Source of the DNA: Terriglobus roseus
GTDB taxonomy: Bacteria > Acidobacteriota > Terriglobia > Terriglobales > Acidobacteriaceae
Direction of reading: 5' to 3'
NCBI RefSeq assembly: GCF_900102185.1
Contig: NZ_LT629690.1
Location: forward strand, 1,674,001 to 1,738,000
Length of the DNA: 64,000 bases
In this document: positions 13,836-53,072 of the stretch, piece by piece
How the letters are laid out: every line of letters begins with the position of its first letter
How positions within the stretch are numbered: position 1 is the first letter of the stretch
Position numbers and translations under genes: made by a program
The notes under the pieces: model-generated
Database searches by the model: none
Told to the model about the DNA's origin: nothing
Seen by the model: only the letters and a program-made list of their open reading frames with translations

Positions 13836-13866
13836 GGAGGGTACCCCTCCCCCCTGTTTTTCTAAA
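13836..13866 (+). terminator. Possible terminator after dsbD
   Basis: GGAGGG and CCCTCC arms with a TAC loop, followed by a C-run and TTTTT. It forms the left edge of the interspersed repeat and could end dsbD transcripts. Confidence 0.45.
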
Positions 13867-14075
13867 ATCGTCTTTCTATTGGGTTTACTGTTTGGGTGTC
13901 GCTAAAATCGTCTTCCCATTGGAGTTACAGGCAAAATCGTCTTTCTAAAAGAGTTAGGGCCGCGCTTAGCACGGCCCTTTCCTCTTCTGTTTCTATTTTA
14001 GTGGTTTCAGGGAAATAGTATGCCAAGTTTATTTCTTTTAGTTTGTTGGGGTTGAGTGGTTCAGGGACTTGACAG
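13844..14075. repeat. Interspersed intergenic repeat, copy A
   Basis: About 232 bp, closely matched by 47871-48114. Order: C-run and TGTTTTT; three units with AAAATCGTC at 13864, 13904 and 13933; a variable spacer containing a GGGCCG/CGGCCC hairpin; a block with a CTATTT/AAATAG dyad; a block ending GGGGTTGAGTGG...CTTGACAG. The unit spacings (40 and 29) are identical in copy B, while the middle spacer differs. No coding potential. The remainder up to 14324 shows only short GC-rich hairpins such as CGCCTTCGGCG. Confidence 0.9.
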
Positions 14076-14324
14076 CACTTCGTGCGGTTCTCGACGCCTT
14101 CGGCGTGGACCAGCCGCGTGCTTCTTCGAGGCGCTCGGGGTGGAAGATATGCTCCTGTTTGTTTTGGTGGCGGCGCGGTTTTCAGTTCTTCTTGTAGCGC
14201 CTGCGTCGGCGTGGCGTTTCCGAGGACATCGTCTCATCATTAGCTGCTTAAATCACGCGGAACGACGTGGCCTGAACTCCTCCCGTATCCCTCTGGTGAC
14301 GAGAACGGCGTTTCTCGGGACCTA

Positions 14325-15841: not shown

Positions 15842-16081
15842 CTTCACTTCGTTTCGCTCAGGATGACGGCCTTTGGCCGTATGAGCATCGCTTTTGCGAA
15901 GCTGGTTTGTTTTTGTGGCTGAAGAAGATTTGGGTCTAGCGAAACGATAGAGCGGGCCTTTGGCCCTTTGTTTTCGTACGAGACCGTCTACCTAGGCCTT
16001 CGGCCTAGGCTAATATCTGGTCGCGCCTTTGGCGCTTGATTCGTTGCCGTGTTGGCTGTTTCGTCGCGGACATGACGCTTG
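15842..16081. repeat. 240-bp direct repeat, right copy
   Basis: Partner of 15461-15700 at a 381-bp offset. The hairpin CCTAGGCC-TTC-GGCCTAGG is perfect here. The whole stretch 15408-16183 contains no credible gene. Confidence 0.8.
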
Positions 16082-47870: not shown

Positions 47871-48114
47871 CCCCCCTCCCCCTGTTTTTTCTAAAATCGT
47901 CTTTCTATTGGGTTTACGTTTTGGCTGGCGCTAAAATCGTCTGCCCATTGGGGTTAGAGGCAAAATCGTCTTTCTAAAGGGGTTAGGAGAAAAGCAGCGA
48001 GTTAGCTCACCAGCAACTTCGTTCGCTATTTCTATTTTAGTGGTTTGGTGGAAATAGAATGCCAACCCTATTTCTTTTGATTTGTTGGGGTTAAGTGGTT
48101 TGGGGGCTTGACAG
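47871..48114. repeat. Interspersed intergenic repeat, copy B
   Basis: About 244 bp matching 13844-14075. The three units carry AAAATCGTC at 47893, 47933 and 47962, at the same 40 and 29 spacing as copy A. The first unit and its flanks (CTAAAATCGTCTTTCTATTG and on to GGGTTTAC) are identical to copy A over 27 bases. The spacer between the units and the CTATTT/AAATAG dyad is unrelated to copy A. The remainder to 48205 shows nothing I recognise. Confidence 0.9.
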
Positions 48115-52980: not shown

Positions 52981-53022
52981 GAAAGAGAGTTAGCAGAAGT
53001 ACCGTGCCAACTCTCTTTCTCC
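52980..53022. terminator. Bidirectional terminator
   Basis: AGAAAGAGAGTT and AACTCTCTTTCT form a 12-bp stem between the hxlR-type gene and the convergent sulfatase remnant. Confidence 0.8.
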
Positions 53023-53072
53023 TGATTTGCGGGGCTCGGGGGGTAGTTCTTTCTCCCAAGAACCGCCCGTGT

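Follow-up and report, generated by a model that had tools for sequence, protein, structure and literature searches.

Repeats dispersed through bacterial genomes are often taken for parasites or relics. The BOX elements of Streptococcus pneumoniae are dispersed, modular and intergenic and contain a repeatable inner module, as does the Terriglobus element described here. Unlike BOX, however, the latter occupies positions common to species, carries a species-dependent unit core and ends in a promoter-like right module, and we know of no sequence relation between the two. A looser analogy is offered by the multi-motif decoy RNAs CsrB and RsmZ and by the ToxI repeat RNAs, in which a short RNA repeats one binding motif. 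These are encoded at one or few loci each, whereas the present element has about 48 copies and its transcription is only proposed.

According to PMC3733652, REPs are palindromes of 20-40 bp, CGTC-tagged repeats were found in five phyla with Acidobacteria not among them, and REP-type transposases occur in T. saanensis and other Acidobacteria. The present element is likewise multi-copy and intergenic, and its unit in this genome happens to contain CGTC. A REP-like nature, one of the options raised by the first-pass annotation, nevertheless does not fit, because the element is 240 bp long, its units are non-palindromic on inspection, and the core is not CGTC in T. roseus DSM 18391 and G005 (units read) or in several other genomes. 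The REP-type transposases of Acidobacteria may bear on a second repeat family, represented at 14076-14108 of the window (the whole stretch of 64,000 nucleotides that was analysed). MerR-type regulators, as stated in PMC8113463, use promoter spacers of 19-20 bp, and their promoters share with our right module -35- and -10-like hexamers at a constant, suboptimal spacing. In contrast, no operator dyad was seen in the spacer here, and about 48 copies lie in a single genome. Among the titles and abstract openings listed from the literature on repeats of Acidobacteria and Terriglobus, no description of this element was present. It is a real, widespread and selected element family with an unusual evolutionary signature, which may act through RNA or DNA, and it points to a previously undescribed regulatory or docking element.

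Copies, architecture and the species-dependent core

A non-coding element of about 240 bp had been proposed at two loci 34 kb apart in the window. Direct reading of the sequence confirms it at both, with three units spaced at 40 and 29 bp in copy A and copy B alike, unrelated spacers between the conserved blocks, and a downstream conserved block, the right module, which ends in CTTGACAG at 14075 (copy A) and 48114 (copy B). The element begins about 5 bp further left than first assigned, with GGTACCCC. On the plus strand of copy A, the C-rich left end GGGTACCCCTCCCCCCTGTTTT (13839-13860), a part whose run lengths vary in aligned copies and which is also present in other genera, is followed by unit 1 (AAAATCGTCTTTCTATTGGGTTTA, 13864-13887, an exact core match), unit 2 (13904-13927, two mismatches to the searched core) and unit 3 (13933-13956, found by core search). 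The exchangeable spacer (13957-13980, plus strand) carries an optional terminator-like hairpin, GGGCCGCGC-TTAG-CACGGCCC-TTT, and the right module TTCTATTTTAG...TGCCAA...CTTGACAG occupies 13991-14075 (plus strand, model R1). Its end motif CTTGACAG (14068-14075, plus strand) contains TTGAC, which is invariant in the 30 sequences of alignment A1. Copy B, also on the plus strand, consists of the C-rich left end (47871-47890) and unit 2 (47933-47956), both read from the sequence, units 1 and 3 (47893-47916 and 47962-47985, core search), and the right module (48030-48114, right-module search). Its spacer (locus L019, 47986-48029, no strand assigned) lacks a strong terminator hairpin (z = -0.91).

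Further copies, which the first-pass annotation had suggested looking for, exist both in this genome and in other Acidobacteriaceae. A BLAST search of the whole genome with copy A returned 40 places (E 8e-118 to 2e-30) and a detached piece of one of them, and queries with either module or with the unit core added eight copies, giving 48 in 4.85 Mb, which is far above chance. The plan of a C-rich left end, three 24-bp units, an exchangeable spacer and a conserved right module ending in CTTGACAG recurs among them. Unit spacing is (40,29) in 80 and (41,29) in 13 of 114 copies from three genomes; L020 is the single copy with a fourth unit, by internal unit duplication. The unit follows the pattern AAAA-(6 bases)-TTC-(TA..)-GG-TTA. 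A 239-column consensus, aligned from 113 of the 114 copies (L037, with a spacer of about 311 bp, was left out), starts with GGTACCCCCTCCCCC, proceeds through unit 1, unit 2 (+40 bp), unit 3 (+29 bp) and the spacer, and continues as TTCTATTTTAG...GGAAATA.CATGCCAACTCTATTTC...TTTGTTGGGG...GGGGCTTGACAG; beyond the right end of the element, the consensus of four genome groups continues roughly as CTTGACAGSNTTT. A right-module match at 52984-53044 of the window (E 1.8e-5) was rejected, as on inspection it resembles a chance inverted repeat after a gene end. In place of the three units, locus L181 of T. roseus DSM 18391 has a ~31-bp tandem repeat, CTGCTTCGATCTCGTCCGCTACTTCCGTCGA, before its right module.

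RNA structure, another of the options considered for the element, is not supported by folding. Compared with shuffles, the gain in folding of a consensus is only 1.7-2.0 SD on each strand, and Rfam gave no match at gathering threshold over copy A or copy B, the best sub-threshold match over copy A reaching 24.1 bits against a cut-off of 91. Only 25 of the 43 copies tested show the supposed pairing of CTAAAAT with ATTTTAG in exact form, since CTATTNTAG frequently has G or C as its middle base, as in 11 of 13 copies read of T. roseus DSM 18391. A GAAATA/TATTTC dyad of the right module was also discarded, being present in this species but, on inspection, not conserved in G004 and G005. As an optional part, the spacer hairpin reaches z below -2 in 85 of the 135 spacers overall; a strong one was found in 26 of 41 spacers of the window genome, many with a T-run after it, and in 2 of 13 of T. 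roseus DSM 18391.

Copies with the same core are present in two sister species (G013 and G007, with G000 denoting the window genome), and diverged relatives occur in T. roseus DSM 18391 (G011, a soil type strain) and in other genera of the family; the right module (model R1) was matched in 10 of the 19 genomes of the genus, with 24 matches in T. roseus DSM 18391, and in 12 of 100 from the family. The core TCGTCT accounts for 118/133 script-matched units in G000, 101/115 in G013 and 54/75 in G007. T. roseus DSM 18391 carries AT(T/C)AGA in 33 of 39 units from 13 independent loci (hand count, with the L189/L190 duplication entered once), and G004 is similar, while the cores of G005 are mixed (TCCTGC, TCCTGG, TCTTAT and others) and G006 has hardly any recognisable unit. 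A free-core pattern was positive in 9 of 150 family genomes, three of the same genus and six from four other genera (g7, g8, g40 and g56), with zero matches throughout in the reversed control. Its five matches in G139 all read ATGTC(A/T), and one match each was obtained in G081 (ATGTCT), G024 (TATTCG), G025 (TCGGAC), G131 (ATAGAA) and G184 (TTCACA). For G025 and G131 core uniformity is not shown, since the units of the sole locus seen carry differing cores.

The 6-base core is largely uniform within several genomes and differs between species even beside the same neighbour gene. The left neighbour is kept across the core change between L015/L090 and L195 of G004 (91% protein identity), and between loci of T. 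roseus DSM 18391 and both L029/L109/L122 (L182, 68-73%) and L012/L051/L089 (L189, 58-60%, where the right neighbour matches that of L089 too). It is also kept between L198 of T. roseus DSM 18391 and L158 of G006 (82%). A weaker match links L014/L097/L087 with L188 and L194 (48-51%, orthology unproven), and in G138, from another genus, the gene end left of the element reads on inspection as that of L186 of T. roseus DSM 18391. For 37 diverged loci, neighbour protein matches were left to left in the same direction 43 times, right to right 8 times and in all other combinations 18 times. The 15-base unit core with at most one mismatch was found at 85 places (71 exact and 14 one-mismatch), all of them within elements, so that no separate RNA target was found; at up to 3 mismatches there were 199 places (the best 100 of them listed) versus 62 in the reversed control.

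Selection, inheritance and one-sided flanks

The first-pass annotation took conserved modules around a variable spacer as a sign of selection on structure or protein binding. Selection on the modules is upheld by the following comparison; the structural half of the suggestion is not supported by the folding described above. Column classes were set from conservation among G007 copies alone, and mismatch was scored in 37 G000-G013 orthologue pairs. From the least to the most conserved class, mismatches numbered 60/182, 291/1236, 352/1656, 260/2305 and 153/3313, i.e., fractions of 0.33, 0.235, 0.213, 0.113 and 0.046, and the neighbouring left genes gave 0.065, 0.035 and 0.154 at codon positions 1, 2 and 3 for the same species pair. 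The most conserved element columns (4.6%) therefore change at a rate close to that of second codon positions (3.5%), while the variable ones (21-33%) exceed third positions (15%). The element modules around the variable spacer are under selection. Relics drifting since insertion would not show such a pattern, and gene conversion alone would level every column alike. Whole-element identity was 0.87 for G000-G013 orthologues against 0.755 for non-orthologous copies, and only 0.77 against 0.746 for G000-G007.

A non-autonomous mobile element had also been suggested, and the tests of mobility speak against it. Flanks were compared for 44 of the 48 G000 copies, 30 G007 copies and 40 G013 copies; the matches listed were 39 in G007 and 42 in G013, some being pieces of one copy. 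Target-site duplications were not detected in the 44 G000 copies (longest shared flank word 3.84 versus 3.69 for shuffled pairing, SD 0.13, P 0.12), nor were terminal inverted repeats (mean local end score 5.33 versus 5.15 in shuffles, SD 0.98, with 0/43 copies above the shuffle 95th percentile). Of the 44 G000 copies, 38 have an orthologue in G013 and 28 or 29, according to the rule applied, have one in G007. For empty sites, twelve left flanks were queried against G007 and G013. Nine stretches lacking a listed copy, eight of them from G007 and one from G013, were inspected, and none was a clean empty site. Seven had no real right-flank match, one (L230) retained both neighbours with other DNA in between, and one (L226) was a truncated remnant that keeps the first ~35 bp of the element joined to a REP cluster and so represents a loss. 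Loss is also suggested at L232, which has no element while the same gene has one in G004 (L195). An autonomous version with a transposase between the modules was not noticed in the partly matching loci L026, L037, L039, L040 and L062-L065, which show complete but diverged modules or, at L037, a small ABM-family frame. The copies mostly keep their positions.

The element stays with its left neighbour, and collinearity is lost only to its right. Across three genome pairs, both flanks were collinear within 400 bp for 34 orthologous copies, the left flank alone for 57 and the right flank alone for none; per G000 locus, a right break in at least one comparison was seen at 30 of 41 and a left break at none. 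Right intergenic gaps are wider (medians 125 bp versus 65 bp on the left), so some right bias is expected, but not 30 to 0 (counted at element loci only). Ten G000-G013 pairs were traced over 20 kb. Six are consistent with ~1.5-5 kb of additional DNA in one of the two species; the other four, where both species have differing DNA over 2.7-10 kb, define no insert. At L037/L066 homology continues ~60 bp beyond the element end before the difference starts, hence the junction is not always exact.

A REP-type hairpin, CACTTCGTGC-GGTTCTCGACGCCTTCGGCG, belongs to the second repeat family and lies outside the element, directly at the right junction of copy A (14076-14108, no strand assigned). The family continues with ...ATGCTCCTGTTTGT...GGCCGCGCGG... 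and was observed there and at L044, L052, L117 and L121 of G007. REP clusters within 200 bp were found on the right of 21 of 30 G007 copies and on the left of none, and the hairpin directly follows CTTGACAG in 13 of these 30 and in 4 of 40 G000 copies. Neither G000, with REP signatures right of 6 and left of 5 among 44 copies, nor G013, with 6 and 7 among 40, shows this one-sidedness.

The promoter-like right module and its possible readings

Read on the opposite strand, the right module has the form TTGGCA-N20-TANAAT. In copy A (minus strand, 13995-14026) TTGGCA lies at 14026-14021 and TAAAAT at 14000-13995, and in copy B (minus strand, 48034-48065) they lie at 48065-48060 and 48039-48034, separated by 20 bp in both. 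A search free over spacers of 14-24 bp, which gave credit for T(-12), A(-11) and T(-7), placed the spacer at exactly 20 bp in 142 of 160 modules, a count that leaves out three loci of other genera (L216, L217 and L222). The -10 variants among these 142 include TAAAAT (78), TACAAT (39) and TAGAAT (13); the 18 modules without the motif include 3 of 15 in T. roseus DSM 18391, 3 of 4 in G005, 3 of 3 in G006, 2 of 2 in G138 and the single one in G105. In alignments made independently of the motif search, the hexamer TANNNT is present: across the 30 sequences of alignment A1, A(-11) and T(-7) never vary and T(-12) exceeds 90%, and the same columns reach 99% in 113 copies. Barring the free -10 base, the columns of both hexamers are invariant or nearly so in A1. 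The motif with a 20-bp spacer was also found in six of nine modules tested from other genera (G111 2/2, G076 2/2, G063 1 and G119 1), with the -10 hexamer changed to TATCCT in G063 and TATGCT in G119, while G138 and G105 do not fit.

A -35 hexamer at the sigma-70-type distance of 16-19 bp was not found, as the TTGGCA-like hexamer sits at 20 bp. Such a spacer lies beyond the usual range and is a real weakness of the promoter reading unless an activator acts. Inspection of the 20-bp spacer revealed no MerR-operator dyad, only GGAAATA on one side being strongly conserved, and inspection of aligned copies revealed no T-run terminator at the left end of the element. A rightward promoter with the perfect TTGACA as its -35 hexamer was rejected, because no TANNNT is enriched rightward among 146 copies (at most 4 per offset). 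For a leftward promoter counts L037, whose spacer holds a complete 102-aa ABM-family reading frame running leftward relative to the element (L037 2144-2452, plus strand) with its start within about a dozen bases of TAAAAT. Against it, only 19 of 44 G000 copies (18 of 43 under a stricter ORF rule) have a left gene running in the direction of the proposed promoter, so that the majority of leftward transcripts would lie antisense to the end of a gene.

We tentatively favor the reading in which the element is a vertically inherited, selected regulatory cassette whose right module would act as a leftward promoter with a nearly invariant upstream site, CTTGACAG/CTGTCAAG. Transcription would run leftward through the spacer and the three 24-base units to give a short repeat RNA or, where the left gene points the same way, a leader of that gene, and an activator might compensate for the 20-bp spacer, as MerR-type regulators do. 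The three units would dock a partner of lineage-dependent specificity, which would give the units of one genome a common core. The tie to the left neighbour would also be explained by such a promoter. Promoter firing, activity of the RNA rather than the DNA, and the existence of a single partner are all inferred by us from these sequence patterns.

A DNA docking array, in which a sequence-specific protein binds the three units as double-stranded DNA and its recognition domain shifts between lineages, is possible and nearly as likely as the leftward promoter; a nucleoid organiser, a boundary factor or a repair-control factor could be the protein, and the right module would bind conserved partners without being a promoter. 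Direct repeats at fixed spacing, (40,29) or (41,29) in 93 of 114 copies, agree with it, as do the site-wise selection, the species-differing core shared at fixed positions and the occurrence of all four gene orientations around the element. However, the promoter-like columns of the right module count against this reading, and neither 29 nor 40 bp makes a whole number of helical turns (10.5 bp assumed). Also against it, the gaps between copies along the chromosome are no more regular than random (CV 0.858 versus 0.97, P 0.19), and even chromosome-wide spacing was dropped. Less probable is a transcription boundary, with the element mainly ending transcription of the left gene through a C-rich, pyrimidine-rich stretch as Rho entry site plus the optional hairpin, and the right module insulating the next gene. 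The strong hairpins with T-runs in the spacers of the window genome would suit this role, as would convergent genes as the commonest context (17/44, or 15/43 under the stricter ORF rule) and the ordinary-looking hairpin seen on inspection after the gene at two element-free G007 sites, L231 and L232. Yet the left gene is transcribed away from the element in 18-19 copies, the hairpin is weak or absent in 11 of 13 spacers of T. roseus DSM 18391, and termination does not need a species-specific core.

Slightly less credit still is due to two further readings, both of which we consider improbable. MITE-like relics, whose transposase is gone and whose conservation came from per-lineage amplification and gene conversion, would account for dispersed copies in intergenic positions, for the unit duplication within L020 and for copies in one species that are missing in another. 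They are hard to reconcile with the 38 orthologous places in G013, the same neighbour genes in species with other cores, the column-specific constraint between orthologues, the lack of target duplications and terminal inverted repeats, and the nine stretches with no clean empty site, where the truncated remnant at one G007 site indicates loss. An attachment or insertion site, likened to the one-sided growth of a cassette platform, would make the right end CTTGACAG a preferred target of REP clusters and acquired genes. The right-only breaks (57 to 0), the right-hand REP clusters of G007, 13 of 30 at the junction, and the extra DNA in six of ten G000-G013 pairs point this way; but REP signatures are one-sided in G007 only, the wider right gap accounts for part of the bias, the ~60 bp of homology at L037/L066 makes the junction inexact, four of ten pairs define no insert, and, in comparison with an integron-type site, where cassettes are joined at a recombinase core site, no far-end motif was found.

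Returning to the leftward promoter and its repeat transcript, a bolder generalization, which we hold to be doubtful, is that about 50 fixed intergenic cassettes per genome, family-wide, each emit or display three species-specific password motifs, which would change in concert across positions when the trans-acting partner of a lineage changes. If true, this would make the cassettes a bacterial analogue of regulatory arrays that co-evolve with their reader. Here selection holds a repeat family at single loci, at positions common to species and in one case to genera, and the element flags sites of one-sided change in gene content. Shared positions with a species-differing core amount to a natural experiment on many binding sites co-evolving with one partner; since the species comparison predicts a binding motif both for T. 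roseus DSM 18391 and for the window species, the partner could be fished out directly.

Finally, some neighbouring and duplicated sequences were also observed. An Acido-Lenti-1 RNA (RF01687) was matched by Rfam at 15991-16036 of the window (plus strand, 38.2 bits versus a cut-off of 37). Two element copies of T. roseus DSM 18391, L189 and L190 (2463981 and 2924502), lie in a 3.7-kb stretch that is 99.97% identical and looks like either a recent segmental duplication or an assembly effect. Moreover, one 2.8-kb gene block (91% identity) recurs to the right of two distinct copies, at L144 (559-3389, G000) and L147 (58-2883 of the G013 right flank, read outward from the element); it looks like a putative arsenite transporter operon, and its second site in G000 seems to hold a truncated remainder.
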